From Salinibacterium sp. SWN167 (lineage in GTDB: Bacteria; Actinomycetota; Actinomycetes; Actinomycetales; Microbacteriaceae), in assembly GCF_015864665.1 (NCBI RefSeq), contig NZ_JADYWU010000001.1, forward strand, positions 1,984,001 to 2,048,000: 64,000 nt of DNA. The letters are read 5' to 3'. A program made the translations under genes and the position numbers. Positions 43,884 to 59,994 of this stretch are shown here, one piece after another (within the stretch, counting starts at the first letter, position 1; each line of letters starts with the position of its first letter). Below the pieces are notes generated by a model. It saw only the letters and a program-made list of their open reading frames with translations, searched no databases and had not been told where the DNA came from.

Positions 43884-43929
43884 GCGCGGGGAATTCTTAG
43901 ACCATTGCTCACGCAATCATTCCCCGTGC
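43884..43929 (+). terminator. Hairpin after the tiny basic protein gene
   Basis: Arms gcgcggggaa and ttccccgtgc pair with one mismatch, and the region between them holds a second small stem (attgc/gcaat). It lies 15 bases after the stop. The remaining bases to 44046 hold nothing recognisable. Confidence 0.5.
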
Positions 43930-44046
43930 CTACCGAGGTGCTGCGCCAACGGGCGCCGAGCCTCTGCACTTACTGCTGAATCATCCACGAAGATTCAGTG
44001 GCGAGCCCGATGGGCAGCTGAACGAACTGCACCGTGGTCAGACGAC

Positions 44047-45423
44047 TCAGGAATCGACACTCTCCGGGCCGGGTTCTGAAGGTTCGACAGCCGCGTTCCC
44101 GCCGCTCTTCCGTTTCCAGATCGCCCCGATAGCGCCGGTAACGTTGGAGGCCGCGCCTTTGACTGCGTCGCCGGCGGTCTCTGCTGCTGTCAGTGCGCGT
44201 GGCTTGTCTGGGATTCCGTCCCCGTCCAGATCTACTGATCGAAAAACTCCTGTGGCGCGATCGAAAGTCTCTGCGCCAACGCGACCCGCGACTGCGACTC
44301 CCTCTGAAGCCGACGCTAGAGCCTTATCCCGCACCTCTACGGCGGCCTGCCGCCAGCGCTTGGGCACATTCTCTCCGTGCTCGGAATCAATCCCAAGCCG
44401 GCCTCTGAAGGCAAGAACGCCTACAGCGACTTTGTCGCTGGATTTCACTGCTGCGGGCGCATCGAAGGGGTTGAAAAGCACGGACTTGTTGGCCCGCTGA
44501 ACGGTATCTGCCATTTGAGCGAGGATCCCTGCAGTGCATCCAGCAATTACCTCGACCCGATTCTGCCGGGCATGGGTCAAGCCGACTCTGTGGCTTTCTA
44601 AGTCCTCCGGCGCTGCATCGAGCACTCGATCTAGCTCGAGGATCGACAATCCATCCTGAAGTTGGATCGTGCGAGCCAGGACAGAGAGCCATTCATGAAC
44701 CTTGGGCTCCGCTTCTTTGGTTACCTTGACGATCTCTCCGAGATCCGCCTTCTTTCCCAGTTTCGACGCAATGCTGTCGAGTTGCCGGAGGGCGTAGCCC
44801 TGAGTGCGAGCGAGAAGCAGCCCACACGCCTGAACCTTCGACCATGTGACATCAGAGACTCGCCCAACTCGATTCCGAACAGCGAGGGCATCTTCGATGA
44901 TTAGATCCACTCCGATCACGTCTGCGATAACAGCATCCTTCTGGTTGCGCAGGATGTCATCGACCTTCTCGTTGATTTCTTCGAGGTAGTCGATGATTGT
45001 GTCCATCTGCTCCTGAATCACGCGCTGCTGCATCATTGTGGCGAGGGCGGTGATCGCAAAAGGTCCGCTTAGTAGAGCGGTCGGGGCTTGCGCAATTTGA
45101 AGCCACTGCTTTATATCGCCGGGATCGCCGATCATCGCGTGACTGATTCCGGGCGATTTCGTCGCCATCAGGCCAAATTCTTTTACCGCAGCGGCTGAAT
45201 CGGCAGTCAGTTTCACCCACTGACCAGAATTCGCGGCGATATCCGCGCCGATCTTCGCAGCTTCCGCGCCGGTGTTAGAGAAAGAGCGCAATCGTTGAAG
45301 GTCGATTTCGTGCGAGGGGGCTTTATCTAATCCTGCAGCGAGGAAGAAGCGCTCAATGTCTGCCGAGGAGCCAATAGCTACAAGACTGTCGCCATCGCTA
45401 ACCAATTCAATTTCGCTGCCCAT
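44047..45423 (-). CDS. Orphan protein with a calcium-loop-like motif, unknown function
   Basis: A 458-residue protein that I do not recognise. From the ATG at 45423 it begins GSEIELVSDGDSLVAIGSSA; a mostly helical N-terminal domain is followed by a hydrophobic stretch (APTALLSGPFAITALATMM, about 113-131), long amphipathic helices with coiled-coil character (EEINEKVDDILRNQKDAVIA), and a C-terminal region with VDLDGDGIPDKP (about 410), a thrombospondin/dockerin-type Ca2+ loop. The C-terminus is Ala/Gly-rich and then acidic. No signal peptide is visible. The frame extends 33 codons upstream but without family support. It is alone in its unit, in accessory DNA. Confidence 0.68.
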   Translation of the reverse strand: MGSEIELVSDGDSLVAIGSSADIERFFLAAGLDKAPSHEIDLQRLRSFSNTGAEAAKIGADIAANSGQWVKLTADSAAAVKEFGLMATKSPGISHAMIGDPGDIKQWLQIAQAPTALLSGPFAITALATMMQQRVIQEQMDTIIDYLEEINEKVDDILRNQKDAVIADVIGVDLIIEDALAVRNRVGRVSDVTWSKVQACGLLLARTQGYALRQLDSIASKLGKKADLGEIVKVTKEAEPKVHEWLSVLARTIQLQDGLSILELDRVLDAAPEDLESHRVGLTHARQNRVEVIAGCTAGILAQMADTVQRANKSVLFNPFDAPAAVKSSDKVAVGVLAFRGRLGIDSEHGENVPKRWRQAAVEVRDKALASASEGVAVAGRVGAETFDRATGVFRSVDLDGDGIPDKPRALTAAETAGDAVKGAASNVTGAIGAIWKRKSGGNAAVEPSEPGPESVDS

Positions 45424-45608
45424 CGTCGCCCCTGTCTTCAGTGTTCTTCTTCTTCTTACCCTAGGACCCTCGCCAACTGTGTTGGGGCACGACTGCCCCG
45501 CAATCTTCGCGAGTCTTGCCAATTCTGCTCACCGAGGATTGGCGGAACGACGAAACGAGCGCGCTGACGTTAGGTACTCAAAGCTACGTCTCCACGCGAT
45601 GAGGAAAG

Positions 45609-46628
45609 TTAGGTCAACTCGCGCAACCGCAGCACTACAGCAGCACGACTCGTCACCTCAAGCACCCGGAAGATTCCCTCCAGATGCTTCTTTACCGTCG
45701 ACTCTGACATCCCCAGTTCTCGCGCAAGCTCGTTGTTCGAACCACCCGTGCGCGCAAGCGCAATCACGACGTCAGCTTGGCGGCGCGTGAGACCAGTTGC
45801 CAGAAGCGCAGCCGTATCTGCTGCGACATCCTGTTGCCGTCGCAAGAAGATCACCGTCGGCCCAAGCCGCACCGGATGCACGATGCAGTGCCATCGCTGC
45901 GTGCCGATCATCACGTCATGTTGAGCTTCTTCGCCGGGTGTCGAGTCGGCAGCAGCGACGATCGCTGCGAGCTCGTCCGGAACTCGATCCCCCACGTTCA
46001 GCACGTGCGACGACGAAGCTTCAACCACCCCATCCGACCGCACCGACACCACTGCCCAGGCGTGACGATCCATCTCTGCGTTCACGAGCAGGGCGCGCTC
46101 GGCATCGAGCGCTGCGCGATGGTGCATCGCAAGGTGACCGCTGAGGGCGTTCATGACGGCAACGTCGCGATCGCTAAACTCCCCCATCCGCTCGCTGCGG
46201 TTGAGGGCGTAGCCGACCACGACATCCGGCGGTGATGGCAGCTCGACGACGAGCTGAAAGCGCACATCGAACGGCGCATAAAAGTGGCGGTATAGCTCGG
46301 TTGCCGTGAAGTTGGCGCCGCCCTCAACGTCGCTGAAGCGGATCGCACCGAGCCCGCGCCCCGCGCTTGCTGCTGCAATCAGCGGATGCTGGTGAAAGTA
46401 CTTGTCGTACTCCGGCTTCAACCGGGTGGCGACGGCGATCTCAGTGAGGGGCACAATCACGTAGCGAAAGTCGCGCGCGGCCAGCACCATGTCATTGAAG
46501 GATGCGCTCTCGCAGTCGATGACTTCGCGCACCGCTTCGAGCACATCCGCGAAATCGAGGGGCGGATGCGCGGTCAGCCGCCCGGCGACCCGAAGGACCG
46601 CTTGTGCGTCAGCATCGCTCAGCCCCAT
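45609..46628 (-). CDS. LuxR family transcriptional regulator with GAF-like sensor region
   Basis: A 339-residue regulator. The N-terminal 80 residues are duplicated in the truncated gene at 36860. The middle (about 80-240) looks like a GAF-type sensor (FTATELYRHFYAPFDVRFQL, VVGYALNRSERMGEFSDRDV, ALSGHLAMHHRAALDAERALL). The C-terminal LuxR HTH reads LTRRQADVVIALARTGGSNN then ELARELGMSESTVKKHLEGIF. Many actinobacterial regulators of this plan respond to unknown signals. It is divergent from the lipoprotein at 46706 by 77 bases, which it may control. Confidence 0.87.
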   Translation of the reverse strand: MGLSDADAQAVLRVAGRLTAHPPLDFADVLEAVREVIDCESASFNDMVLAARDFRYVIVPLTEIAVATRLKPEYDKYFHQHPLIAAASAGRGLGAIRFSDVEGGANFTATELYRHFYAPFDVRFQLVVELPSPPDVVVGYALNRSERMGEFSDRDVAVMNALSGHLAMHHRAALDAERALLVNAEMDRHAWAVVSVRSDGVVEASSSHVLNVGDRVPDELAAIVAAADSTPGEEAQHDVMIGTQRWHCIVHPVRLGPTVIFLRRQQDVAADTAALLATGLTRRQADVVIALARTGGSNNELARELGMSESTVKKHLEGIFRVLEVTSRAAVVLRLRELT

Positions 46629-46705
46629 GCTCCAACACATTACCCGCGCGCGTACGCCTAAAGACGTATTGCGGATGCTGGCTGCCGGTCGGCACGCTTA
46701 ATCCC

Positions 46706-47326
46706 ATGACTATGCCGCGCACGCCTTTCGCCCTCACTCCCCTCTCTGCAGTGCGAAGGGTTCGGGTTGCGGCGATGGTCCTCGCCCTCACGGCGACGCT
46801 CGCGGCCTGCTCGACGTCGACCGACGACGAGTCGATCGACACTGGCACAACGGATGACTCGAGCACCGCTGAGGAGACCACGGAAGACGAAACGACACCA
46901 GACGAGGCTGACGCGGGCGGATTCACGTCCGACGATGTTGGAAACGCCACCGTCACCATTAACGGGGTCGAGTTCCCGGACTTCACCGGCGACTGCGAGA
47001 TCAGCCGTCTAGCAGGGAAGGAGGATGTCGGAGACCTCAGCATCCCCGGCATCTTCACGATCGTCGGGATCGACAACGTGAAAGCGCACGAAGATGAGGC
47101 GATGAACTTCGTCGCGATCAATGAATCTCAGTTTCGATTCAACGACCTCGTCGGAGCAGCCGGCGTAGAAACACCGGCACGCGGCGATATCGCTTCGCTC
47201 ACAGAACTCGGCCCTCGAACCGCCGACGGAAGCCGCGACCTCGTCGAAGTGCGCTTCGCTGGCACGTTCGAAGACGGCACCCCCATAGAGGTGGACATCG
47301 TCTGCGAGCTGCAGAACAAGTTCTAG
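46706..47326 (+). CDS. Lipoprotein, paralogue of the one at 37207
   Basis: A 206-residue secreted lipoprotein: signal helix VRVAAMVLALTATL, lipobox LAAC, Thr/Asp/Glu-rich spacer, and the same C-terminal domain as the 37207 protein (VTINGVEFPDFTGDCEISR, TIVGIDNVKAHEDEAM, SRDLVEVRFAGTFEDGTPIE, IVCELQNKF). The conserved Cys pair suggests a disulphide. The ATG at 46706 is chosen because it gives the signal peptide. The promoter side is shared with the divergent LuxR gene. Confidence 0.82.
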   Translation: MTMPRTPFALTPLSAVRRVRVAAMVLALTATLAACSTSTDDESIDTGTTDDSSTAEETTEDETTPDEADAGGFTSDDVGNATVTINGVEFPDFTGDCEISRLAGKEDVGDLSIPGIFTIVGIDNVKAHEDEAMNFVAINESQFRFNDLVGAAGVETPARGDIASLTELGPRTADGSRDLVEVRFAGTFEDGTPIEVDIVCELQNKF

Positions 47327-47524
47327 GAGCGCGAAACTCGCGGAGTCGCCGGAGAACGCGACTGGAAAACACTTGAGACCAATGCGCTTATCCGTCTCGT
47401 CAGTTCGCAAAGAGGTGATTTCTCCGAAAGAATCGTGAGACTGATGCCCTGCGATTGAGCCGATCGAGCCGTGAGTCGATACTCCGCGCTAAGGTTCAAG
47501 AAGAAACCGACAAGGGAGTGATGC

Positions 47525-47713
47525 ATGGGGGTTTTGGACGACCTTAACAAGTTGAACTCGCAATTGAACACGATCAGCGCGAGTTCGAATGCGGCTGCCG
47601 CGAATTCGCACCTAGAGCAGGCGCGGAAGACGAATGGCGCTGAACAGACAGAAAACGTGATTAAGGCACTAGAGGCACTCGCAGCCGCTGTGACAGCGCT
47701 CGCTCAAAAGTGA
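47525..47713 (+). CDS. Small helical protein, unknown function
   Basis: A 62-residue frame starting GVLDDLNKLNSQLNTISASS with a long Ala/Leu-rich helix at the end (VIKALEALAAAVTALAQK). GGGAG lies 8-9 bases before the ATG. The composition is that of a soluble amphipathic helical protein. It is not homologous to anything I recognise. Confidence 0.6.
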   Translation: MGVLDDLNKLNSQLNTISASSNAAAANSHLEQARKTNGAEQTENVIKALEALAAAVTALAQK

Positions 47714-48457
47714 GCCGGTAGAGCCCAAGCCAGAACCATCTCGTGAGCAGCCCGCGCCACTAGAGTCCAGCAGGCAATCAGTGCTTCTTCACTCAACAAA
47801 GTGTGCTGCCGAAGCGGCTCGCAGTGCTCTATTCCGTTTGTCCGCCGCGACGCCGGTGACCTGCGGCAATCGACTGATGCTCCATCCAGCAGGCGCAAGA
47901 CTCGATGTTGGAATGCGCTAAACGATCTTGGCGGAGTGGGCACAACATGACAGGCACTTCTCCGAACGGAGGGATCAGGCCTGACGACGACCGCACTTAG
48001 CACCAATCCCGGATGCGGTCCCATCCCGCCAGACGAACAACTACGGCGCGGCAGCAAACCTCTGGCGCGCGAGGTGATCAGCTACTTCTTATCGAAGACG
48101 CTCTCCTGTGAAAAGCGGTTCGTTCGCCCATCGGCCCAGCATCGAAAAACTCAAATATCCGGACTTCACTAGAGCTCCAGCCTCTGCAAGAACTTGTCTG
48201 AATGTTTCCGGAAGTGGGGCGTTCGGTTGCGCCCTGAAACGCTCCTGGAAAAGGTGCACCCAGTTTGGACACCCAATCTTCGGCATCGGATTTCGGCCCG
48301 TGGAAATGTGCTTGCCGTTTCCAGGGGCGGGCCTATAACGGGGCGGGCGACGTGGCGTGGCGTGGCGTGAAGAACCGTCTCGCGGTCAAGTCAAATCCGG
48401 TTCGATGTTAGAGCGAAGTGCGGAGCTGGCAGCGCGCGTGTGCGGTCAACTCTAAAA
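47714..48457. other. 744-base region with one doubtful ORF
   Basis: Apart from the small frame at 48089-48286, no coding sequence is supported; longer frames here (for example 47704-48057 on the minus strand) have non-protein-like composition. A short gtggc repeat lies at about 48346-48368. The region separates the LuxR/lipoprotein locus from the ATPase/helicase pair and looks like eroded DNA. Confidence 0.5.
48089..48286 (-). pseudogene. Possible gene fragment
   Basis: The 65-residue frame MPKIGCPNWVHLFQERF... continues through LPETFRQVLAEAGALVKSGYL and GRWANEPLFTGERLR. Composition and residue periodicity look coding-like, in contrast to the surrounding DNA, but it is too short for a known family and ends abruptly. 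It may be the N-terminal stub of a lost gene. I do not recognise it. Confidence 0.3.
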
Positions 48458-51400
48458 TCACTGCATGATCTCCCGGTTCTCGTCGAATTCTTCACCAAAA
48501 TCGGCATCATCCGTTTCGCTGTAAAGCTCAATACCTTCCATCGCAGCTTGAAGGTCGATTGCATGCTTCCCCACGAAACGGATTCGACTATCTTTACCGG
48601 CGAGCTGCACTTCGACAGTCGCGCTGCCGCTCATTCCAATCGTCTGGGTGAGCAGGTCCTCGCGCAACGTTTCTGTCTGAGTCGACCGCGCATGTTGATA
48701 CTTTGCGGCGCAGATGGGGCACAACGCGAGGCGATTCTCTTGGAAGTCTCGATTTGCATCACTATCAAATTGGACAGCCACAAAGTAATACTGATCGTCC
48801 ACCTTGAACGGCATTTCCTCGCCACAAATCTGGCACACCAAGACTCCGTCGTCATTCGAATACAACTCTGACAGGTAGGCCTTAGCTGTGCTGCGAAGCC
48901 CCGGTTCCTGGACACGCACGCTTCGAAGCCGAGTCGCATAGCGGCGCTCCGGAGACTCGGTGGCTCGGTCACGGACGCGACTCGCCCGCCGCTCTGGCGC
49001 CGGAGAGGAAGCTTCAGGCAGCCTGGGAGCCTTTCTTGAGCGCTCCCATTCTTGGAACCCTTCGGGATCTTCATTAATTGACCGGGCGATTTCTTGGGCC
49101 CGCTCGACAGAGCCGAATCCCCACGCCGTTGCGTGCACTTCACCGCCGCGTGCTCGCAGCGCTGCCATGTTCGCGACGTGACCGAAAAGCATTCGGTCAA
49201 GAAGCGGAGCCCTTGACGGAAGTGTCATACCCTCCGCGAGGTCGCTCACCGTCATTTCGGCGGGGATTCGAAGATTCCCGTCACAGTCGAGGATCCACGC
49301 CGTGTCTCTGAGCATCTGCACGAGTTGAGAGTCGATTCGGTGCACGTTGCTGGAGGCATTGGCTCGATACACGGCTTCGCCGACCGAACCTTCAGCGCGC
49401 GTGACCAACGCCCACAGTCCCCGCAGAAGGTTCTCATCGCCGGTCTCGACGATCGCTAGGAAGTGTGGGATAGTCCAATCTTGCGAAATGCAATTCTGAT
49501 TCTGCCGAGCAGAACGCCACCGGTTTTCGAATAATGAATTGCCCCAAATTGTCGTCTTCTTAGCCACTACGCCCTTAGTTGCGCCGAGGCGAATCGCAAG
49601 TTCGGCAACATCGAAGGTGCACCCGCTATATACGTTGGAAAGTGGGAGCAAAACTGTGCCATTGAATGCGTCCGATTCGTACAGCGCGCCAAGTCCTGAC
49701 GACAGGAAAGGCTCGTCGAGGAAGAGTTGAGTTGCAGATACCCAGCGCAGGCTAGAACCGTCATCGGCAAGAAAAATCGCGAGCTGAGAAAAACTTCGTT
49801 CAGCTGCAGTCTTCTGGTCAAGCAGCGCGTTGAGCGTGACCAAATCATCGATGTGTGCCTGACTAACCGCGGTCATGGCGGGGGAATACGAACGGAACCT
49901 AGCTGTTAGCTGAGCAGCAGCGTCCCAAGGTTTTACGTCTGCATGGGTGAAGAATTCTGCAAGGGCATCTTTGTCGGCTGACGGCGCGCTCGTCTCGCTC
50001 TCATCAAACGAAACGAGCGAGTCCAAAACTAGACTCTCGGCTCGCAATCCGGAGGCTGCCGGAAGGAATGCGTCGACCCCGCGGACGTGTTCGACCCCGC
50101 TAACGGCCTGGACGCGAATAAGGGGCACGGCTGAGAGGCTTTCCGGATACGGATCGCTGTAGAGACGAAAGCGGTAATCGAGACGCGTGAAAGGATTGTG
50201 GTTTTGCTTCGACAGGCGGCCGAGCATAGCGTAAAAGTTCCGGAGCCAGTCGTTCCCCTTGGCAGATAACCACCCCATCCAGCGCCTATACACTTCGATT
50301 TCGATCGAATCCAGGTACTGATCAGCCTCGTCGCCCCATCGCGCGAGGTCATTGTGGGTCTCACCGAGGCGTTCGAACGCCTCGGCCAGCTCGACAGAGC
50401 CGAATTCAATCGCCGACAACGACGAAAGAAAATCGCGTGCCCGATCCTCGCTGCGCGGTAGCCAACCGGCTGCGGGCTCAATCGGTTCGGTGTCGGACAA
50501 TTGCCGAAAGAAATCTACATCCGCTGGGAGCATCGCAACTCGGATTGGCACTTCCGCCCGGATCAGACTGGAAGATTGTGCATGTCCGCCACCTCGAATC
50601 GGCGTGACCGGCTGCTGTTCAAACGCTTGGATCAGTTTCTGGCGAATGGGTTCATACCGCTCAGGCAAATCATCCGACTCATTGGGGAGAGCGCTGAGGA
50701 GGCCTTGAGCGACTAGTCCCGCATCGCGCATGGCAGGTAATGCTGCGGCGATGAGTTGAGCTATGCCCTCGATTAGCACGTCGTTGCCGTCGTCATCGCG
50801 GACGCTGTCACGAGCGACCGTGGAGGCGAACGGTGCGTGAATGTGGAACTTTAAGCGAGAGGTCTCCTTCACCGCAGGAAAATAGATAAAAACCTCGCCG
50901 TCGATGGGTGCTACTGCATATTTGACAAGTTGCGCTCCGCCGCGTGCGCCCGGGAGCCCCGTGCTCTTAGATCCCTCTCCCGTCTCCACTAGTGAAAACG
51001 CGGCCGCTACCGGGAACCGAGCCCCACCAAGCTCTACATCACCCGAAATCCGATACCAAAAAGTGGGACCCGTGTCTTCGTGGACACTGTCAATTTCGAT
51101 CACACCATTGGTCGAACTGCCACGTTCGATGAGGCGCACTTCCGAGTCCGGGAATTTGCATTCAACCGAGCGAATATTGTTGAGAAAAAGCAATGTACTT
51201 CGGGAGAGCTCGCGGAGCGCGCGTTCGACTTCGATGCAAGCTTGTTCCGACGGCTTCCCCGGGCGATTGAAAGGAAACCAGAACGAGGTTGACCCTTCGG
51301 GTCGATCCACCTGCTCTGCCGGCGTGGGCACGAACATATCGTGAATTGTGAACGAGTGTTCTCCAGATTGAACGTGCGGCGTTTCGGTATAGGCGAATAC

Positions 51401-51727
51401 TGCCTTGAAACCGACGCCGAACTTCCCGATAGTCGTTGCATCATCTGATTTTTTGGTCGACTGGCCGATCCCCGTAATCGACTCGATATCGTTCACGTCG
51501 AATGATCGTTTCCCGTTGTGCTCAAAGCGAAGTCCGTCGGGACGGAGCTCGAAGGAAACCTCCTGAGCTCCGGCATCCTCAGCGTTCTGCAGCAGTTCAT
51601 AAATGAAGTGAGCGTTGTCGGGATAAAGGTCGGCGAGTAGTTTCCGCAGCCCCTCTTCAAAGCCGTTTTCACGTGCAGCGTCGACGTAGTCGCGGCGCTT
51701 CTTTGCAAGCGCGTCTAATCCACTCAT
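48458..51727 (-). CDS. Sacsin-like GHKL ATPase with C-terminal zinc finger, probable defence protein
   Basis: A 1089-residue protein. The N-terminus is a sacsin/Hsp90-type ATPase: N-box FIYELLQNAEDAGAQ (42-56), then ESITGIGQSTKK and the glycine lid IGKFGVGFKAVF (100-111). A long middle region (about 250-900) with alternating beta and helical segments has no known domain. The C-terminal part has a Cys4 zinc finger, VCQICGEEMPF (about 963) paired with LCPICAAKY (about 1000), then an acidic tail. Its ATG overlaps the stop of the SNF2/RapA helicase by 4 bases (51724-51727). Sacsin-like ATPases and helicases often occur in anti-phage loci, so the pair is a candidate defence system. Confidence 0.82.
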   Translation of the reverse strand: MSGLDALAKKRRDYVDAARENGFEEGLRKLLADLYPDNAHFIYELLQNAEDAGAQEVSFELRPDGLRFEHNGKRSFDVNDIESITGIGQSTKKSDDATTIGKFGVGFKAVFAYTETPHVQSGEHSFTIHDMFVPTPAEQVDRPEGSTSFWFPFNRPGKPSEQACIEVERALRELSRSTLLFLNNIRSVECKFPDSEVRLIERGSSTNGVIEIDSVHEDTGPTFWYRISGDVELGGARFPVAAAFSLVETGEGSKSTGLPGARGGAQLVKYAVAPIDGEVFIYFPAVKETSRLKFHIHAPFASTVARDSVRDDDGNDVLIEGIAQLIAAALPAMRDAGLVAQGLLSALPNESDDLPERYEPIRQKLIQAFEQQPVTPIRGGGHAQSSSLIRAEVPIRVAMLPADVDFFRQLSDTEPIEPAAGWLPRSEDRARDFLSSLSAIEFGSVELAEAFERLGETHNDLARWGDEADQYLDSIEIEVYRRWMGWLSAKGNDWLRNFYAMLGRLSKQNHNPFTRLDYRFRLYSDPYPESLSAVPLIRVQAVSGVEHVRGVDAFLPAASGLRAESLVLDSLVSFDESETSAPSADKDALAEFFTHADVKPWDAAAQLTARFRSYSPAMTAVSQAHIDDLVTLNALLDQKTAAERSFSQLAIFLADDGSSLRWVSATQLFLDEPFLSSGLGALYESDAFNGTVLLPLSNVYSGCTFDVAELAIRLGATKGVVAKKTTIWGNSLFENRWRSARQNQNCISQDWTIPHFLAIVETGDENLLRGLWALVTRAEGSVGEAVYRANASSNVHRIDSQLVQMLRDTAWILDCDGNLRIPAEMTVSDLAEGMTLPSRAPLLDRMLFGHVANMAALRARGGEVHATAWGFGSVERAQEIARSINEDPEGFQEWERSRKAPRLPEASSPAPERRASRVRDRATESPERRYATRLRSVRVQEPGLRSTAKAYLSELYSNDDGVLVCQICGEEMPFKVDDQYYFVAVQFDSDANRDFQENRLALCPICAAKYQHARSTQTETLREDLLTQTIGMSGSATVEVQLAGKDSRIRFVGKHAIDLQAAMEGIELYSETDDADFGEEFDENREIMQ

Positions 51728-54700
51728 GGGGCCACCACCTCAATCAACACGTTCGCTATGTGCCTTGTCGTCAGGTCAGTGCGGGCGACCCCCCTTTCCT
51801 GCGCACCGAGCAGTCGATCAAATGACTCCTCTGCTCCGCGCATTTCGCCCGCCTTCATAATCTGAATATCAGAGTGGACAGCGGAGTCCCGCTGTCGCTG
51901 GATAGCGGCTAGGCGACGAGACTTCTGAGATCGAAGTGCCGCCAGCCGGCGCTCTGCTGAAGCAACTTGCCGTTGCTGGTTGGTATGCCTTGCCTCAACC
52001 CAGAGCTTCGCGTGTCGCTTATCCAGTTCGAGGCTCTCTTGTTCGGTCATCTCTCTGATGTCAGCAGAGCCGGCGGCCGACAGGAGCTCAACCGCGCAGC
52101 TTTCCACCGCCGCATCGACTGAGATCGTTCGGACGGCGAGCGAATCGGTGCTGCCGCGTCGGGTCCACGCATAGATGCCAATCGGATACGCGCCGGGCGC
52201 AACACGATCTGACACCACCCTTAAAGTACTAGAAAGGGGCACATCGAACGCACTGCGCTTCGCTGCAAGGAGCACCAACGGATGGGTCGGTCCCAGAAGC
52301 TCTATTTCCCCCTCGTCTTCATCTTCGGCAAGATCTAAATCAGTCGTCAGGCGAAGCACAATTCTCTCCCCGCGAAGTCGGCGCTTGAGTCGGTGGGCCT
52401 CGATTCCTTGATCATCGAGGTCCTCTGAGATTTGAGTCGCGACATCCGCAGAAACCGGAACACGGGCGACCCGCCCGGGCCGTATTGCAATCGAACGCCC
52501 GGGCTGGATGCCTTCGAAGTACTGTCGAACGAGCGCGGCAATTTTGATGTCGCTAAGCCACTCGCTTGATGCTTCCGCCACGTCCTGCTCGAAGGTCTCG
52601 CCCGAATAGCCGAGCAAATCTGGCTGCTGATCTTCCAGCCCCTGCTCTTCCTCAACGCGCGATAGTTCGTTGTCAGCCAGTTGCCGGAGGGCGGCAGCAC
52701 GCTCAATGCGGGTTAGCCGAAGATCAGTCGCAATATCGACAATCGCAGCAGTTATCTCGCCCAAGATCTGTTCGCTGCCACCGAGCGCATGATTGAACAC
52801 GCCAATACGAGAAAGGCAACGGTCGTAAATCTCGGCTTCAATCGTGCCCTTGGTGAGGATGTTTACAATCGCGACCGTCTCGCTCTTCTGTCCGCGACGA
52901 TCAATGCGCCCAATTCGTTGTTCGATCCGCATCGGGTTCCATGGAATGTCGTAATTCACGATGGTGTTGCAGAACTGATAATCGAGGCCCTCTGTACCTA
53001 CTTCCGAACACAGCATCACATCCACGGCGTCCAACGAGGAGCGATCGAGTTTGAATCGGTGTCGAATCGACTGTCGATCTTGATCGGCGACCCCTCCATG
53101 CATGACTCCCACTCGGATATCCATTCGGCGGCACTCTGCTTCGAGGTACTGGATGGTGTGGCGAAAAGTTGAAAAAACAAGCACCTTATTGTTCGAATCG
53201 GCGGACTTGTCTTTAATCACCTGCCGGAGCAGCTCGACCTTGGGATCGGCCTCCCCGATGAGGCCCTCCGCGAGGGATTGAATTTCGCGAGCTTCTGCCC
53301 GAAACTCCGTTATTTGCTCGGAACTTAGTGCGTATTCTTCGTATTCGGCAGACATTTCCGAGCTGCGAAGTCGATTTTCGAAGATGTCCTGAATAAGGGG
53401 CGCAAGCCCCGAGATCGAACTCGCAGCCTGACGATAAAGCGTCGATAACAAGAACTTGACCGAAATCTCGGGAGAACGAGCCGCTGCAATACGCTCGCCG
53501 AGAGCCAGCACTGCGGAATACACTCGCTCTTGCTCGGCCGTGAACTCTACGACGGGCGCCGAGGGCTTTCGCGTGGTGAACTCCCCGATATCTCTACGTC
53601 GCGTTCGTGTCACTATCTCCGAAAAGGTGTTGAGTTTCTCAATGAGCCTGACTGCGCGAACGCGATCCCTGTCGTCGGTGTCTGAACCATTCAGCAGGGC
53701 CAGCAACTCCGCAACGCGCGGATCAACGGTCAATACGTCTTGGCCCCATCTGGTCTTGATCGCGAGGCTTAGATGCCGGGCGGCTTGAAGGGCCCAGTCT
53801 CTGTCGCCGCTACGTGCAGAAACGGACGCGTTGTATAGGTGCTCATTTGGCTCCAGCATGACGAGGAAGTCATCCTGATCCGTCACGAGATCATCTCGCA
53901 ACAGATTTACGATCGTGAAAAGGTCCTGACTGCGTGTCTGGATCGGCGTGGCCGACATCATCACCACGGCGTCGGATGCATCAACGAAGCGCTGAACGCA
54001 TTGGTACGCCTTGGTCTCACGATTCCGGATGTGATGGGCCTCGTCAACGATTAGCAAGTCGAACTTGAGCTCGCCCGCTAGATCATCGAGGGAAGCTGTA
54101 CCTAATTTCTTGCCATTGCGGCGACCCGTTAGAAGCGTCTCGTCGAGCAGCGAGTAAGGCAGGATCGCCTTTCGGTAACGGGTCGGCCAAGCACCATCGC
54201 GGAGGGTCTCTTCCAAACACCACCGCAACGTTTTGCTGTCGAGATGCACAAAATCCTCATCAAACCGTTTGAGTTCATTGCGCCACTTTTCGTCGACTAC
54301 GAGGGGCCTAGGACAAATCACGAGAACCGATTCCGCACGCTTGCGTGCTTCAAGCTCCTTGATGATGAGGCACGCTTCGATTGTCTTTCCCACGCCAACG
54401 TCGTCCGCGATAAGAATGCGCGGCCGATCAGACTGCACGAGCTTAAGCACCGGTCGATACTGGTAGGGCTCAAAGTCGACGCGACCCGCGTTGCGGGAAC
54501 GAAGATAGTCGCTGTTCGGGTCGAGCAGCAATACCGCCGAGAGCGCCGCATGGAGTTCTCTGGCAGAGACTGCGCGACCGTTTTGTGCATTTTCGATCCG
54601 TTCGACCTGCGCCGCAAGATATTGATGAATAGCTCCGTCGTGGAAGACACTATGTCGGAGTTCACCTCCAACCTCGTCTGAGCCCACTACAGCGCCGCTA

Positions 54701-54852
54701 ACCTCGCGTCGAGCTACTAGCCGCACTACGGTGCCAGGCGCCAGCGGTTCGGGTCCGTCAACAACCATATTTCGAGTTCTTCCCTGCAAGTTGAGATGAG
54801 CGCCATCGAGTCCGAGAGCAATCGCCACACACGGCTTCCTTTCGTCGAACAT
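51724..54852 (-). CDS. SNF2/RapA-type DEAD-like helicase, probable defence protein
   Basis: A 1042-residue superfamily 2 ATPase. An N-terminal beta-domain (1-120) leads to the SNF2 core: Walker A ADDVGVGKT (149-157), DEAH box VDEAHHIRN (269-277), MSATPIQT (299-306), motif V VMLCSEVGTEGLDYQ and motif VI IEQRIGRIDRRGQ. The C-terminal 350 residues add a helical domain and a basic coiled-coil (RHTNQQRQVASAERRLAALR). The overall plan resembles RapA/DrmD-like helicases. It is the first gene of a two-gene unit with the sacsin-like ATPase, coupled by ATGA. No methylase or nuclease gene is adjacent. Confidence 0.87.
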   Translation of the reverse strand: MFDERKPCVAIALGLDGAHLNLQGRTRNMVVDGPEPLAPGTVVRLVARREVSGAVVGSDEVGGELRHSVFHDGAIHQYLAAQVERIENAQNGRAVSARELHAALSAVLLLDPNSDYLRSRNAGRVDFEPYQYRPVLKLVQSDRPRILIADDVGVGKTIEACLIIKELEARKRAESVLVICPRPLVVDEKWRNELKRFDEDFVHLDSKTLRWCLEETLRDGAWPTRYRKAILPYSLLDETLLTGRRNGKKLGTASLDDLAGELKFDLLIVDEAHHIRNRETKAYQCVQRFVDASDAVVMMSATPIQTRSQDLFTIVNLLRDDLVTDQDDFLVMLEPNEHLYNASVSARSGDRDWALQAARHLSLAIKTRWGQDVLTVDPRVAELLALLNGSDTDDRDRVRAVRLIEKLNTFSEIVTRTRRRDIGEFTTRKPSAPVVEFTAEQERVYSAVLALGERIAAARSPEISVKFLLSTLYRQAASSISGLAPLIQDIFENRLRSSEMSAEYEEYALSSEQITEFRAEAREIQSLAEGLIGEADPKVELLRQVIKDKSADSNNKVLVFSTFRHTIQYLEAECRRMDIRVGVMHGGVADQDRQSIRHRFKLDRSSLDAVDVMLCSEVGTEGLDYQFCNTIVNYDIPWNPMRIEQRIGRIDRRGQKSETVAIVNILTKGTIEAEIYDRCLSRIGVFNHALGGSEQILGEITAAIVDIATDLRLTRIERAAALRQLADNELSRVEEEQGLEDQQPDLLGYSGETFEQDVAEASSEWLSDIKIAALVRQYFEGIQPGRSIAIRPGRVARVPVSADVATQISEDLDDQGIEAHRLKRRLRGERIVLRLTTDLDLAEDEDEGEIELLGPTHPLVLLAAKRSAFDVPLSSTLRVVSDRVAPGAYPIGIYAWTRRGSTDSLAVRTISVDAAVESCAVELLSAAGSADIREMTEQESLELDKRHAKLWVEARHTNQQRQVASAERRLAALRSQKSRRLAAIQRQRDSAVHSDIQIMKAGEMRGAEESFDRLLGAQERGVARTDLTTRHIANVLIEVVAP

Positions 54853-54978
54853 AGCCCGTGCCGAGTCCGTGGCGCGGTAGGCGCGGTTCTCGAGAGAATT
54901 CCGAGATAAAGCAACAAGTCAGCGGTCCCTCAGCACCCTTCCACTTGCGTCGTCTTATCTATCTGTTCAACCCAGCGG

Positions 54979-55650
54979 CTACTCGTAGATTTCGATAAAA
55001 CTGGGATCATACAACTCGATTTGGGCAACGCCTTCGAAAAGCGTGATGCGACCCGAGGTGCAAAGAGTCAGTCCACCTGCGATCGATTCGAGTGAACCTA
55101 CATCCCACACCACAATTTGGAAACGAGCGGGGTCCGGATAGTCGCGACCGAGGTTCAGGAATACGTCGTCGTAGGAATTTCCACCCCCGGCAAGCGGGCC
55201 GCACACACGTTGAACGGTCCCGGCATGGGCGGCCGCTTCATTCCACGCGATGCCGCCACCCGGTTGCTGAACAGCTTCCGCGGGCGCAACACCCACTTCG
55301 CAAAGCCCGTCTGCTCGAAGAAGCTCAATAGCTCGCGGCCCGAATCGGTCAGAGAGCGATTCGCATGTATCGACTCCAAACTGCTCCGCTGCGCCTTTCC
55401 CGGAGGCGTAATCTACAAAAACGTTGTACTCGCTCGAACAATTACTACTCAACCAGTCCAGCTCCGCGTTTATCGCCCCGGCAGTGTCGTCGGTCTTCAC
55501 TCGGTGCAACACAGTCGAAAGGGTGTCGGTGCAGCTCGCTGCGGGCTCAGCTCGAACTTGATCGGATCCGTAGCTCGTGCACCCAGCGAGTAACGCTAGA
55601 AGAGCTATGACCGCTACTTGTTTCAGCCCCGCCCATTTTTTCATCCCCAT
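54979..55650 (-). CDS. Lipoprotein, unknown function
   Basis: A 223-residue lipoprotein: basic MGMKKWAGLK start, hydrophobic core VAVIALLALL, lipobox LAGC. The mature part carries five Cys (SCTDTLS, SNCSSEY, DTCESLSD, GLCEVGV, RVCGPL), suggesting disulphides, and ends in a beta-rich region (FQIVVWDVGSLESIAGGLTL, RITLFEGVAQIEL). No family is recognised. A start at 55644 (MKKW) is also possible. It lies 126 bases after the helicase start region in the same direction, so it could precede the helicase transcript, but I see no coupling. Confidence 0.72.
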   Translation of the reverse strand: MGMKKWAGLKQVAVIALLALLAGCTSYGSDQVRAEPAASCTDTLSTVLHRVKTDDTAGAINAELDWLSSNCSSEYNVFVDYASGKGAAEQFGVDTCESLSDRFGPRAIELLRADGLCEVGVAPAEAVQQPGGGIAWNEAAAHAGTVQRVCGPLAGGGNSYDDVFLNLGRDYPDPARFQIVVWDVGSLESIAGGLTLCTSGRITLFEGVAQIELYDPSFIEIYE

Positions 55651-56433
55651 AGTTGATGACCCTTGCAGATCACACTGCTGGCGGTCAATGATCTCGCGAA
55701 GTGGTTCGCCCGCAACACATGCAACGGCTCTCAATCCGTCGGGAAGCTATCGGCAGTATCGAAGCGAGCTCTCCGAAGTCGCCGCCGCTGAAGAACAAAC
55801 GGACTTGCGCAGTCAGTCGAGACCAAGCGAATTCCCGACTCAAAGTGTTGGATTTGTGTTGGATTGCACGGCAGCGTTCAAAAATCCCATAGAAAAGCTC
55901 CGGACTTCGTGAGAAATCCGGGGCACATTGTGGGCTGTTCCAAGAACTCACACAGCCCTTGAATCACAGGTCCGTTCGCGACGCCTGAAACGCGTTTTCC
56001 TCCACGCCCCTCCGGATTTTCCTCTTTTGGCGCGGGGCTGTGCTGAGTCGGGGCGCCGAAGGGGGCACGCTCGGTGTTTGGCGCCCGAGGGGTGGCACAC
56101 TGGAGGCGCTCCGAAGCGGCGATAGTGTCGCCGCAGGCGCTCGTCCATTCGTCTACGCCTCTAAAACTACCAACGCGAAGGCAAGCGAATCCCCTGACAA
56201 TGTCGGCATTCCGTCGACAGCGTTCGAGCGTCACGGTGGACATCGCTCTCGCTATGGTTCGGTGCGCGTCGGATCTCGGCCGTCTCAATGTCGGCAGGGC
56301 GCGCCAGACTCGGCAAGTTCCTGCTTAAGTATATGGTTCGAGGGAACTTGGTGCTGCGATGTGTTGCGGCCGTTCCATACCGCGGGATTTCGAGGACGTT
56401 TCGACGTCGAACAAAACTGGAGACTGAATCGTC
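55651..56433. other. Intergenic region with the left tRNA-Pro-type repeat
   Basis: No gene is supported. Bases 55841-55937 repeat, imperfectly, the DNA downstream of the tRNA-Pro at 59829-59928 (see that entry). From 56035 to 56125 the DNA is very GC-rich with a loose tandem pattern (ggcgccgaaggggg, ggcgcccgaggggtgg). Long frames here have compositions unlike proteins. Confidence 0.5.
55841..55937 (+). repeat. Left imperfect direct repeat (tRNA-Pro terminator copy)
   Basis: This 97-base block aligns with 59829-59928. Both begin caaagtgttgg, both contain ccatagaaaa followed by the hairpin gaaatccggggc and the same cacattgt, and both end in gggctg, which in the right copy is the 3' end of the tRNA-Pro acceptor stem. 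In the left copy the hairpin arm is mutated (gctccggacttc) and the tRNA similarity stops after six or seven bases. It is a likely att-type scar or a remnant of a duplicated tRNA locus. Confidence 0.7.
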
Positions 56434-57060
56434 ATGACCTTCCTCAAAGCAAGGGTTCTGCTCTGGCCTCTCCTACTGGTCATTGTGCTGGTGGTCGCGG
56501 GAATGGGCGCAGGTTTCGCGTTTGGTGGACTCAACGCGCTCGCTCTCGGTTCGCTGTTCACCAGTAGCTCGAACGAACGAGATTCGCAGGTTATTAAGTT
56601 CGACACACCCATGCAAGAGGTCGCCTTACTCAGCCTTCATATCGAGGGTATCGCGAGGGACGAAGGCAAAGGAGAGATTCTCGGCTTCGCCGTACCCGCG
56701 AGCGAGAAAACGACGTTGATCCAGTACAAGTTCGACGCAAAACTAGGCATCGATGGGTCACAGGTGAAGATCGAACCAACCGGGCCAGGGTCGTTTCGGG
56801 TGACTATCCCTGAATTCATTAGCATCGGCTTCGACGATCCCGTGTTCGAGGACCCCATCGAGACCAACAACGTGCTCAGCTGGCTGGCGCCGCCAGCGGC
56901 TCAAAATCGCATGATCAACAACATTCTCAGCGACGAGAACAAGCAGAAGTACATCACCCAAAGCGAAGCAGCGCTGAAAGCGCAAGCCCAAGTTTTCTAC
57001 TCCGGAATCATCAAAAGCGTCGATCCTACGATCACCATCGACTTTGAGTTCGCAGGGTAG
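56434..57060 (+). CDS. Membrane-anchored protein, DUF4230-like
   Basis: A 208-residue protein with one N-terminal membrane helix (VLLWPLLLVIVLVVAGMGAGF) and an extracytoplasmic domain. EVALLSLHIEGIARDEG, AKLGIDGSQVKIEPTGPGSF and the C-terminal helix QSEAALKAQAQVFYSGIIKS, followed by ITIDFEF, resemble DUF4230 proteins, a family of unknown role. It is the first gene inside the island bounded by the tRNA-Pro repeats. No partner is visible. Confidence 0.65.
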   Translation: MTFLKARVLLWPLLLVIVLVVAGMGAGFAFGGLNALALGSLFTSSSNERDSQVIKFDTPMQEVALLSLHIEGIARDEGKGEILGFAVPASEKTTLIQYKFDAKLGIDGSQVKIEPTGPGSFRVTIPEFISIGFDDPVFEDPIETNNVLSWLAPPAAQNRMINNILSDENKQKYITQSEAALKAQAQVFYSGIIKSVDPTITIDFEFAG

Positions 57061-57497
57061 ATGCCCATAGTGCCCCATCTCGCCCTCTGTTGCCGCGCAG
57101 CCCGGGAAACCGGACGGGCCACCTAAGCAACCCATCCGCAGGAGAGACGCAGGCGCCGTGAACATCTTCAGCATGGTCACCGGGTTCGAGACCGAAGACC
57201 CCGAAGATCACCGGGTGACGAACGTCATGATCGACTACACCCCAGTCCCGATGGTGTTCATCGAACCGTTCGACCCAGTACAACCTGCGCACTATCGCCA
57301 CGTTCCTGAAGGAGCGAGTCATTGCCGAACAGCTCGTCAAACCGGACTGGCCACCTACGCGACCCGTCAGTCGGCGAGATGCTGGCGCCGTGAACCCATA
57401 CACGAAAACGCTTCCACGCGACCCTCTCCTGGCGCGGTGGGCAAAATGAACTGTCCCGGGTTTCTTGCCGCTTTCTTTCTGGTGAAAGGATGCAGTT
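57061..57497. other. Gene debris with a repeated coding-like motif
   Basis: Two segments in different frames encode similar peptides: KPDGPPKQPIRRRDAGAVN from 57107 and KPDWPPTRPVSRRDAGAVN from 57339. The second continues through NPYTKTLPRDPLLARWAK to a TGA near 57447 and is preceded in frame by NLRTIATFLKERVIAEQLV. This looks like the wreck of a tandemly duplicated gene 3' end whose family I do not recognise. No intact gene is present. Confidence 0.5.
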
Positions 57498-57919
57498 ATA
57501 CCCAAGTCTTATCCAAGCGAGGTTCGTGAGCGCGCCGTCAGGATGGCCCTCGATCGTCTAGCTGATTACCCGTCGATGGCGGCTGCGTGTCGTGATCTTG
57601 CGCCGAAGCTCGATGTCGGCATCGAGACGCTGCGGAAGTGGATCATGCAAGCTCAGGCCGATGCCGGGAACCGGGTCGGCCCGACGAGTGTCGAGCTAGA
57701 GGAGATTCGGCGGCCCAAGAAAGAGAACAGGGAGCTTAGGGAGATCAACGATGTTCTGAAGGCGGCGACGTCTTTCTTCGCGAGGGAACTCGACCCTCGC
57801 ACCCGCCCATAGTCGCGTCCATCATTCGGATGAAGGAAGACGGCCACGGAGTCGAGTTGACTTGCAGGGTCCTGCGCGAGCAGGGTATCCAGGTCACTTC
57901 GCGGTCATATCGGGCATAG
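57498..57919 (+). mobile_element. IS3-family insertion sequence remnant (OrfA nearly whole, OrfB start)
   Basis: The frame from 57501 encodes an IS3 OrfA N-terminus, PKSYPSEVRERAVRMALDRL, then the helix-turn-helix region ETLRKWIMQAQADAG and the leucine-zipper end ELREINDVLKAATSFFA, stopping at 57812. The codon where ATG is expected is ATA (57498), so the start is apparently destroyed. In the -1 frame, as in IS3 programmed frameshifting, an OrfB start follows (IIRMKEDGHGVELTCRVLRE) but hits a TAG at 57917-57919. The DDE catalytic part and both terminal inverted repeats were not found. Confidence 0.8.
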
Positions 57920-58093
57920 AGAACACAGGCGGCATCTGCGCGCACGCGCAGCGGCAGCAACGCCAATGCGAGTCGCGTCGAGTCGCGTCTTAGTCAAATA
58001 CGAGGACATCGGGAAGAATCTATTGGGCAACGCAAATATAACCATCTGAGTAACCGCGCTCACAGACCGCTAGTTGAGAAGTCAGTGCGTTCC

Positions 58094-59251
58094 ATGGCAA
58101 AGCGCGTGCTAAGTGCGTCCAGTGCTGTGAGCATCATGACGCTCGACCTATCGTTCCTTGAGGTTTCGTTACGACCAGCAGGAATTGTCGAGCGACCAGT
58201 GAATGTGTACGACATCCTCCGTGAGGGATGGAGGGAGACCCGTGTCGACATGACCCTTCAGTTCTTCCTTGACCCGACAGAGCGCCGTGGTCTCGGCACC
58301 CTTGTCATAGACGCCCTCCTTCGCCTCCTCGATGGAGCCCCGAGCATAGGACTTAATGGTCGAACCAGTAAGCATCTAAACGCGCAAGACGCGGAAGGCT
58401 CTGACGCGTGGGAAGTTGCTACTCAGGTCGACTTCATCGACGTGTTTGCGTCGAACCAGGATTTGGACGTTGCGCTTGTGCTAGAGAACAAGATCGGCCA
58501 CGTGCTCGATAACCCGCTGAGGAAGTATGTCGAGTACGCCCGCAACAAGGGATTCGACACCGTAATCGTGGCTGTACTCGCGCCCGAGACGCGAGATCAC
58601 CCCGACCCAGTGCAGAAGAACTTCCTATCCAGAGCCATCACATACGCCGAGTTGAGCGCTGAGATCAAGAGCGCACCAGAGTTGGTCGAGTTCCTGATGA
58701 GCCCCGGGGATCAAGACCAGCGCCGCAGCCTCGATCTCCTACAGCAGTTCATCGAAGCCCGACACGGAAAGACAGAAATGACAGACCTTGAAGACCAAGC
58801 GCACCGGCTCAACGAATGGCGGGGCATTCTCGAAGAACACAGAGGAGCCATCACCGCCTTCGAGGAAGCGAGGAGCAGCATCGGCCGTCTTATACGCGAT
58901 CGAAGAAAACGCCTTGAACCCCTAATCGCCGATCGTCTCGAAGCACTAGCGCTAGAGACAGGATGGCAAGCGCACGGCGGCGGTAAAGAGGAGACGTGGA
59001 ATGCTTATCATTTCCCAACAGCAGGCTGGTCCGTCGAACTCAAATTCTCAGCTGATCCGACCCGCCCGATGATCTTCGTCTACGACCGACGTGGACTCAC
59101 CTACAAGGATTCCACTATCGAACCGCTCGGCCTCACATGGACCAACACCGACGAGAAAATCGCCGACGCTTTCATCGAACGCGTTGTTCATATTCTCGGC
59201 GAGGTGAAGGCGGGTACCCGGCTCCCCGCGGGCGGGCGCGAAACGGTGTAG
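58094..59251 (+). CDS. PD-(D/E)XK nuclease superfamily protein
   Basis: A protein of about 385 residues. The nuclease core is visible: a conserved Asp in TQVDFIDVFASNQ followed by DVALVLENKIGH, where the E-x-K is the catalytic pair, and a LRKYVEYARNKGFDTVIVAV helix-strand, as in the PDDEXK_4 family. A coiled-coil-rich middle (RLNEWRGILEEHRGAITAFEE) and a C-terminal beta-domain (GWSVELKFSADPTRPMIFVY) follow. Such nucleases occur as solitary restriction-like or defence enzymes. The start is unclear: GTG 58085, ATG 58094 and ATG 58136 are all in frame, none with a strong ribosome-binding site. It lies inside the tRNA-Pro island. Confidence 0.8.
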   Translation: MAKRVLSASSAVSIMTLDLSFLEVSLRPAGIVERPVNVYDILREGWRETRVDMTLQFFLDPTERRGLGTLVIDALLRLLDGAPSIGLNGRTSKHLNAQDAEGSDAWEVATQVDFIDVFASNQDLDVALVLENKIGHVLDNPLRKYVEYARNKGFDTVIVAVLAPETRDHPDPVQKNFLSRAITYAELSAEIKSAPELVEFLMSPGDQDQRRSLDLLQQFIEARHGKTEMTDLEDQAHRLNEWRGILEEHRGAITAFEEARSSIGRLIRDRRKRLEPLIADRLEALALETGWQAHGGGKEETWNAYHFPTAGWSVELKFSADPTRPMIFVYDRRGLTYKDSTIEPLGLTWTNTDEKIADAFIERVVHILGEVKAGTRLPAGGRETV

Positions 59252-59886
59252 CAGCCTCCAGACGCTGATCGCGCTCGTGCTGCACGACTCAAGCACCGCC
59301 GACGCTGTACAACTCGATCCAACGCCACGACGGTGCGTCGGCTTCGCGAAGTGTAGGGACACCGCGGCATGAGGTTCGTCAGTCTCTATGCTCTTCGCAC
59401 CAGAGACTCGAAGGCGACGCTTGCTGCGATAGGCCCTGTGGGACCGAATAACGATCGAGTGCTCGCCCATTGCGCCGGCACTTTCGTTGCGGGCAGGGCG
59501 CCAATCCACACCCAGCGTGTGTGGCCGAGGCGTTGGCGTTGCTGCCGCGACTTCATTCCTTCGGCAAGCGAAAAAAGGACATATCCGGCATCCGCTCGAT
59601 GTACGCGCCGATGCGTCGCTGATCGAATGGCTACCGCAATTCCATGGACGAGGTCGAGTTCTAGAAATCCACCCCGCACCACGGCCGCGTGCATCGAAGT
59701 AACCGTTGATAAGACCGCGCTCGTCGGACGACTACAACCACATTCCTTATGAACCGAGAGAGTAAGACATCTCGCAGATCAGAGCCCACACATCGCACTA
59801 ATTAAATGGGCTTTCGATGCTCCGGAGTTCAAAGTGTTGGGAAAACGTTGGATCGGGGTTCTGAACCCAAACGCTCCATAGAAAAA
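59252..59886. other. 635-base region without a gene, holding the right repeat
   Basis: No coding sequence is supported; the frames present have Arg-rich compositions typical of random GC-rich DNA. Bases from 59829 onwards form the right copy of the direct repeat that ends at the tRNA-Pro. Confidence 0.5.
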
Positions 59887-59928
59887 GCCCCGGATTTCGT
59901 GAGAAATCCGGGGCACATTGTCGGGCTG
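59829..59928 (+). repeat. Right imperfect direct repeat, overlapping the tRNA-Pro 3' end
   Basis: Pairs with 55841-55937. It spans the DNA downstream of the tRNA-Pro, its terminator hairpin, and the last seven bases of the tRNA acceptor stem. Identity with the left copy is highest in the final 50 bases. Confidence 0.7.
59887..59914 (-). terminator. tRNA-Pro terminator
   Basis: A perfect 12-bp stem (gccccggatttc and its complement) with a 4-base loop, followed on the minus strand by five T residues, lies 7 bases after the tRNA 3' end. It is the strongest intrinsic terminator in the window. Confidence 0.92.
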
Positions 59929-59994
59929 ACAGGATTTGAACCTGCGACCCCCTGACCCCCAGTCAGGTGCGCTACCAAGCTGCGCTACAGCCCG
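59922..59994 (-). tRNA. tRNA-Pro (anticodon GGG)
   Basis: Read on the minus strand, 73 bases fold as a full cloverleaf: acceptor CGGGCTG paired with CAGCCCG, D-arm GCGC, anticodon stem CCTGA/TCAGG with loop CTGGGGG (anticodon GGG), and T-arm GCAGG/CCTGT with loop TTCAAAT. CCA is not encoded. It reads the proline codons CCC and CCU. It marks the right edge of the island that begins near 55841. Confidence 0.96.

Follow-up and report, generated by a model that had tools for sequence, protein, structure and literature searches.

A helicase and sacsin-type ATPase gene pair, apparently unnamed, as a candidate two-gene defence system in Salinibacterium sp. SWN167

In Salinibacterium sp. SWN167, two overlapping genes encoding an SNF2/RapA-like helicase (hereafter H) and a sacsin-type GHKL ATPase (hereafter S) were identified in a stretch of 64,000 nucleotides (the window, i.e. 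the whole stretch analysed; contig NZ_JADYWU010000001.1, positions 1,984,001 to 2,048,000). The pair appears to be a genuine two-gene system that brings known parts into a new combination and has apparently not been named. A role in defence is probable. That the pair is a mobile anti-invader system, with H as a motor on foreign DNA, S as an ATP-gated clamp and a HEPN domain as an optional RNase arm, is a reading to which we give an even chance.

The two open reading frames (ORFs), with the lengths, strand and ATGA overlap described in an earlier note on this DNA, were reproduced by an ORF check. The features of the pair, in window positions, are as follows.

51724..54852, minus strand: H, SNF2/RapA-like helicase gene, 1042 residues, first of the pair (ORF, profiles, alignment)
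52693..54510, minus strand: two-lobed superfamily 2 (SF2) helicase core of H, residues 115-720, limits approximate (Pfam and alignment)
54382..54396, minus strand: Walker A of H, GVGKT, residues 153-157 (alignment)
54034..54045, minus strand: Walker B/DEAH of H, residues 270-273 (alignment)
52897..52920, minus strand: motif VI of H, QRIGRIDR, residues 645-652 (alignment)
51724..51727, minus strand: ATGA overlap of 4 nt, H stop and S start (ORF calls)
48458..51727, minus strand: S, sacsin-type GHKL ATPase gene, 1089 residues, second of the pair (ORF, profiles)
51119..51682, minus strand: stretch of S of the sacsin ATPase type
51575..51598, minus strand: N-box of S, E44..N48..D51 (residues 44-51), the three residues invariant in 47 rows
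50399..51118, minus strand: residues 204-443 of S, at the position of the second (transducer) domain of GyrB, Hsp90 and TopoVI-B, including the invariant R306
49028..50398, minus strand: residues 444-900 of S, middle region
48692..48841, minus strand: residues 963-1012 of S, Cys4 treble clef of HNH-like type, lacking both the HH pair and the His that follows the last Cys

H is an SNF2-family SF2 helicase, with SNF2-rel_dom and Helicase_C over their Pfam cut-offs and RapA as the best solved relative of its profile (E 1e-56). SATP is intact beside GVGKT, DEAH and QRIGRIDR, which agrees with the earlier claim that all SF2 motifs are present. H may in truth begin at Met29, since the alignment with its closest relatives starts only at residue 20-37. 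At the N-terminus of S, where an Hsp90/sacsin-type ATPase had been read before, Pfam SACS (E 4e-18, 66.5 bits against a cut-off of 32.8) and NCBIfam P_loop_sacsin (93.3 bits against 50) place the protein in the sacsin subgroup of GHKL ATPases. Its N-box and G2 box (GKFGVGF) are intact, and E44, N48, D51, G101, G104 and G106 are invariant in an alignment of 47 S rows. This alignment omits truncated S proteins, the solo relatives L032, L041, L058, L060 and L062 and the frameshifted L008, L009 and L051, and retains L028, a locus without H. Modelled by itself, the middle region gave a confident fold (predicted local distance difference test score 93.2), for which a structure look-up was uninformative. 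No conserved acid/His or catalytic-looking cluster was found there in the 47 rows; the region could conceal an activity of another kind.

The pairing of H with S exceeds chance. A genome scan revealed 61 loci with S relatives. An H match was found by tblastn in 52 of these, and in 51, spread over many phyla, it lies no more than 0.6 kb from S. In L037 a single 1121-residue gene stands between H and S, and L021 bears an 87-residue H fragment at a contig edge. Rather than occurring mostly as separate housekeeping genes, a possibility the earlier note had held against itself, the homologues are thus mostly paired. The exact 4-nt overlap is common to 19 of the 51 pairs having both ORFs. Near-copies among the 61 are L026/L027, L030/L039 and L025/L034 (by the tree), and the genome of L007 contains a second, divergent pair (L093). 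Additional pairs occur on three rhizobial plasmids, on one archaeal plasmid (from Methanomethylovorans hollandica) and on two viral contigs (L131 and L132). In the 45 pairs with near full-length proteins, the set also used for trees, S and H protein distances correlated with r 0.81, a value reached in 0 of 2000 permutations with host descent not controlled. No third gene is conserved: when 62 loci were clustered, each neighbour family was present in five of them at most.

The genes around the pairs are rich in defence functions. From 288 ORFs of 160-1499 residues in 28 loci, the 150 nearest were taken, two long ones were removed by hand (leaving 148) and the 117 nearest were kept; 117 control ORFs were drawn at random from 141 in 20 regions of 20 of the same 28 genomes. 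At E 1e-15, 164 PADLOC models (models rather than systems) were matched by the neighbours and 8 by the controls. The neighbour proteins include GmrSD, BrxL, YhcG, TIR and Mrr-type proteins. Whether homologous pairs sit in defence islands was a check proposed in the earlier note, and this large excess answers it favourably.

In Salinibacterium sp. SWN167 the pair lies in an island bordered as follows.

43890..59919, no strand: variable genomic island holding the pair (left border at about 43.87-43.94 kb, right border tRNA-Pro)
59920..59994, minus strand: tRNA-Pro(GGG), right border of the island

This island was compared with seven regions drawn from six congeners. The tRNA-Pro(GGG) end was matched in all six and the DNA immediately left of 43.9 kb in five (not G017), and the 16 kb between the borders were mostly unmatched. 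At the same site the congeners bear about 1.2 kb (G010), about 3.0 kb (G004) or some 16.7 kb (G015, with one 0.1-kb match). Two observations speak against a wholly foreign island: the LuxR-type gene region at 45615-47326 has a 76% match in G010, which lies a few kb leftward from the site, and short stretches at 55.8-55.9 and 57.8-58.0 kb are matched in relatives. None of 59 other genomes, 26 congeneric ones included, has full-length S; weak N-terminal hits alone appeared in three of the 59, and two S hits passed E 1e-60 in a survey of 395 other genomes across the phylum. The system is therefore rare and sporadic, and its earlier assignment to accessory DNA is well founded.

Between the pair and the tRNA lies a 4-kb segment (55840-59924) with direct repeats at 55840-55934 and 59829-59924, whose blocks of 25 nt and 42 nt match at 76% and 93% and lie 3989-3990 bp apart. 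In relatives, the DNA at the 3' end of the tRNA is similar to these repeats. Near 57.5-57.9 kb the segment contains what seems, by eye only, to be a decayed IS3-type transposase, and at 58085-59251 a weak PD-(D/E)XK_4 gene (22.5 bits against a cut-off of 22.3). Since this repeat-flanked segment sits between the pair and the tRNA, the island was probably built by more than one insertion. The 'nuclease island' that the earlier note had placed next to the pair is reduced to this one weak gene, in a separate segment, among the ORFs scanned.

The C-terminal module of S resembles a nuclease domain. Besides four sacsin entries, the S profile matched one solved protein at E < 0.01, namely the HNH domain of EcoKMcrA (E 0.0013). 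The CxxC...CPxC cysteines of S correspond to all four zinc cysteines of EcoKMcrA, with a ligand swapped in some relatives (e.g. His in L031, L036 and L054). The HH pair of EcoKMcrA stands opposite A-V in S, and the His after the last Cys, opposite alanine. HH is absent at this position from all 47 S rows; the latter His is retained in three divergent rows (L046, L050 and L053), not in the window S. By its sequence, then, the finger looks like a degenerate HNH-type treble clef. The Cys4 site reported earlier is indeed present, in a module that resembles an HNH domain lacking its HH pair rather than a plain zinc finger. Two solo S relatives from Poribacteria (L041 and L058), with no H match in 10 kb upstream, have a terminal HNH that is complete by eye (Pfam HNH on L041 scores 17.6 bits, under the cut-off of 21.4), and in L032 and L060, also without H, the C-terminal region matches Mokosh models. 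From these ends and the HH-less paired S, the ATPase chassis therefore seems to carry its own effector when solo and a disarmed one when alongside H, a contrast drawn from few solo proteins, with L028, which has no H match, also lacking HH. Separately, an 850-residue plasmid protein of Proteus mirabilis (L094:4231-6783), beside a restriction-modification-like cluster, bears an S-like Cys4 module, so that a degenerate HNH module may be common to other defence-like proteins.

Many H orthologues open with about 150 extra residues, which Pfam assigns to HEPN_Swt1 (E 7e-19, 9e-14 and 7e-13 in three picked for the motif). With our own profile, built from 22, HEPN_Swt1 was found in 26 loci, its R-x4-H motif being intact in 25. 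In the window H and its six nearest tree relatives no HEPN domain with an R-x4-6-H motif was found, and the profile detected no HEPN elsewhere in the loci of this clade or in the window. The clade of seven spans five named genera and the window's own, with the ATPase motifs conserved. On the tree, where 22 rows have HEPN and 23 do not, its state changes about six times (5-6 in bootstrap, at least three forced by well-supported branches); HEPN is an optional module of H. Two Caldilineaceae metagenome-assembled genomes (MAGs; L025 and L034) have DUF4926 where others bear HEPN_Swt1, by Pfam in L025 and by very similar sequence in L034. A fusion of HEPN with SNF2 has been on record since 2013 (PMC3710099), and the text of that paper on the fusion does not pair it with a sacsin ATPase.

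Related systems suggest how the two proteins may work together (the papers cited here and below are drawn on for the sections that treat these systems). ARMADA needs a RapA-like helicase whose Walker motifs are intact, and DISARM and BREX also have helicases of this kind (PMC12458937, PMC12839542). A DNA-looping role was proposed for GHKL ATPases with helicases in restriction-like operons (PMC2292703), and in a model of the GHKL protein VcSduA two chains entwine as a dimer whose middle domain resembles a clamp (PMC12137116). It is because of these precedents that H is read as a DNA-engaging motor and S as an ATP-gated clamp. H, a RapA/BrxHII-like SNF2 translocase, would engage and travel on double-stranded foreign DNA and would recruit S. 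S would be a GHKL ATPase that dimerises and shares the build of GyrB, Hsp90 and sacsin, its large middle region following a domain of transducer type. With ATP it would close on the DNA or on a stalled complex, and the HNH-derived zinc-binding domain of S would be a DNA- or partner-binding module, not a nuclease. On many H orthologues, HEPN_Swt1 could add RNA cleavage and growth arrest once the complex is triggered. In the window lineage the pair would act through blocking or trapping invading DNA, which is the most economical reading because HEPN is absent and no catalytic nuclease was recognised in the window H or S. The odds for the details of how H and S act are about even at best.

Several points weigh against this picture. 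The mechanism rests on folds; the model places the invariant R306 in a low-confidence loop (303-308), and the EcoKMcrA match is weak and concerns that single chain only. A system without a recognised effector might be inactive or depend on an unlinked factor. Eight S loci have no H match (L028, L032, L041, L049, L055, L058, L060 and L062) in the upstream DNA searched (0.4 kb in L062, 2 kb in L049 and 4-10 kb in the rest), so the S ATPase can stand alone; the two S hits of the phylum survey likewise had no H in the short flanking stretch examined. The correlation of S and H distances may partly reflect host relatedness. The sites of the control regions were round positions picked by hand, and the 164 matches are models, several per system, 25 of them listed, so that the fold difference is overstated while its direction is plain.

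Other explanations start from the names that the two proteins attract. Of the PADLOC models, DrmD matches H best, at 380.6 bits along most of its length, and the curated NCBIfam DrmD also scores 299 bits, so that H could be an orphan DrmD and the locus a remnant of DISARM. We consider this barely credible. The NCBIfam cut-off is 610 bits, and in a tree of 77 helicase cores (H residues 112-725), which leaves out BrxHII and ArmA, the 12 DrmDs over the cut-off form one group (Shimodaira-Hasegawa-like approximate likelihood ratio test, SH-aLRT, 98) and the 45 S-linked helicases another (SH-aLRT 100), which also takes in one outsider, the long-branched L114; the identity of H with DrmD was rejected on these two grounds. 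The exact placement of the archaeal row L095 in this tree is unsure because of its long branch. No S match was found near any of 30 DrmD-type loci (L100-L129), of which 14 (L100-L113) extend at most about 1.5 kb past the helicase match. Among the other ORFs scanned, six with PADLOC and ten with Pfam, no DISARM partner (drmA, drmB, drmC or methylase) and no DISARM system was named, and no island ORF besides S and H exceeds 491 residues. The PADLOC BrxHI and BrxHII models reach 177.8 bits or less on H. For S, the best PADLOC names are TmtA models (160.8 bits). Together with the solo S relatives that have an intact-looking HNH or a Mokosh-matching end, this raises a rather unlikely alternative, that S is a variant of Tiamat (TmtA), a self-sufficient GHKL defence ATPase that in this lineage acquired a helicase partner by chance and would still defend by itself. 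Both are large proteins counted as defence, with a sacsin-type GHKL N-terminal region. However, the best TmtA stretch, of two counted, is confined to S residues 26-385 (63-423 of 1486 in TmtA), Tiamat is a single-gene system with another C-terminal part and no known helicase partner, and H adjoins S in the window and in 51 of the 61 loci. Loss of HH in the aligned S rows, with its retention in solo L041 and L058, further suggests that a function passed to the partner. DrmD and TmtA, the closest profile names, are thus poor fits, and no name for the pair was found in PADLOC 2023, NCBIfam or the literature searched, a test that the earlier note, itself unable to name the pair, had set.

The remaining alternatives accept the pair and question its function. 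The intact motif in nearly all HEPN-bearing loci, and the lack of HEPN throughout the window clade, would fit an abortive-infection system that used HEPN as its effector and lost it in the window lineage, where the remaining pair would have no function or a regulatory one. This has only a slim prospect of being true, given the repeated changes of state on the tree, the lineage with DUF4926, the 23 of 45 tree pairs without HEPN and the conserved ATPase motifs across the genera of the window clade. The kinship of H with RapA, and of S with sacsin and Hsp90, would also suit an island-borne module of RapA type, with a chaperone-like ATPase, that serves transcription or DNA repair and not defence. 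Sporadic presence, the island location and the strong excess of defence models among the neighbours make this highly improbable.

Compared with its nearest analogues, the H-S system shares single parts and differs in their company. DISARM DrmD, ARMADA ArmA and BREX BrxHII are likewise RapA-like SNF2 helicases in defence, H forming its own clade relative to DrmD. The BREX helicase is accompanied by a PglX-type methyltransferase. The partner set of Class I DISARM and of ARMADA also includes a PglX-like methyltransferase, together with a YprA-family helicase (PMC12458937), whereas H is partnered by S. In MORC and paraMORC restriction-like operons an SF2 helicase gene, SNF2 in one type, lies close to that of the GHKL ATPase, often with separate nucleases or methylases (PMC2292703), whereas S matches sacsin in general Pfam and NCBIfam scans and has an HNH without HH. 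VcSduA (Shedu type I-D) is a tested defence protein with a GHKL ATPase, but a single protein with a PD-(D/E)XK nuclease domain and no helicase (PMC12137116). Eukaryotic sacsin has the same type of ATPase domain and also bears HEPN (PMC3710099), as do many S partners, but it is one giant chaperone-like protein and its HEPN belongs to another family (HEPN-T, not Swt1-like). The sacsin ATPase type and HEPN, joined in one chain in animal sacsin, are thus spread across two genes here, with a different HEPN family.

Several individual loci deserve mention. A Sulfurimonas MAG (L037:3745-19442) contains a four-gene run of H, the 1121-residue protein (weak SF1-helicase matches), S and a 2058-residue helicase with DEAD plus MZB that matches Druantia DruE models, possibly a hybrid of the H-S system with a YprA-type one. 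Phycicoccus elongatus Lp2 has the pair twice (L033:6034-14170 and from 15053), each time within one of two identical direct repeats that are at least 8137 bp long and have a spacing of 9019 bp, either a true tandem duplication or an assembly effect. A small gene lies directly upstream of H on the rhizobial plasmids L097, L098 and L099; that of L097 (4226-4780) reads by eye as a sigma-factor-type regulator and has no Pfam hit. On an Ensifer plasmid, the gene after S is annotated as a TM0106-type RecB-like nuclease. In Arthrobacter sp. OVS8 (L006:6947-9834) the helicase gene is broken by stops or frameshifts and S is open. An H relative in genome G041 (L114:4093-7539; 35% over about 660 residues) has no S match in the surrounding 12 kb.

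Returning to the mobile anti-invader system, a bolder form of it, possible but doubtful, would be a cross-domain type of defence. An SNF2 translocase would load a sacsin-type GHKL clamp on invading DNA and block it without cutting, the HNH fold having been retired into a binding module, and the HEPN RNase would be an exchangeable toxic arm in other lineages, making the pair a prokaryotic counterpart, across two proteins, of the ATPase-plus-HEPN arrangement of sacsin. If the anti-invader reading is true, the pair would be a widely spread but rare two-gene addition to prokaryotic immunity, and S would be another type of partner for helicases of the RapA type, which DISARM, ARMADA and BREX have in common. 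It would also provide a small and tractable prokaryotic model for the function of the sacsin-type ATPase module. With its disarmed HNH and a HEPN arm that is gained and lost, the system would further allow blocking and killing to be compared on one chassis.

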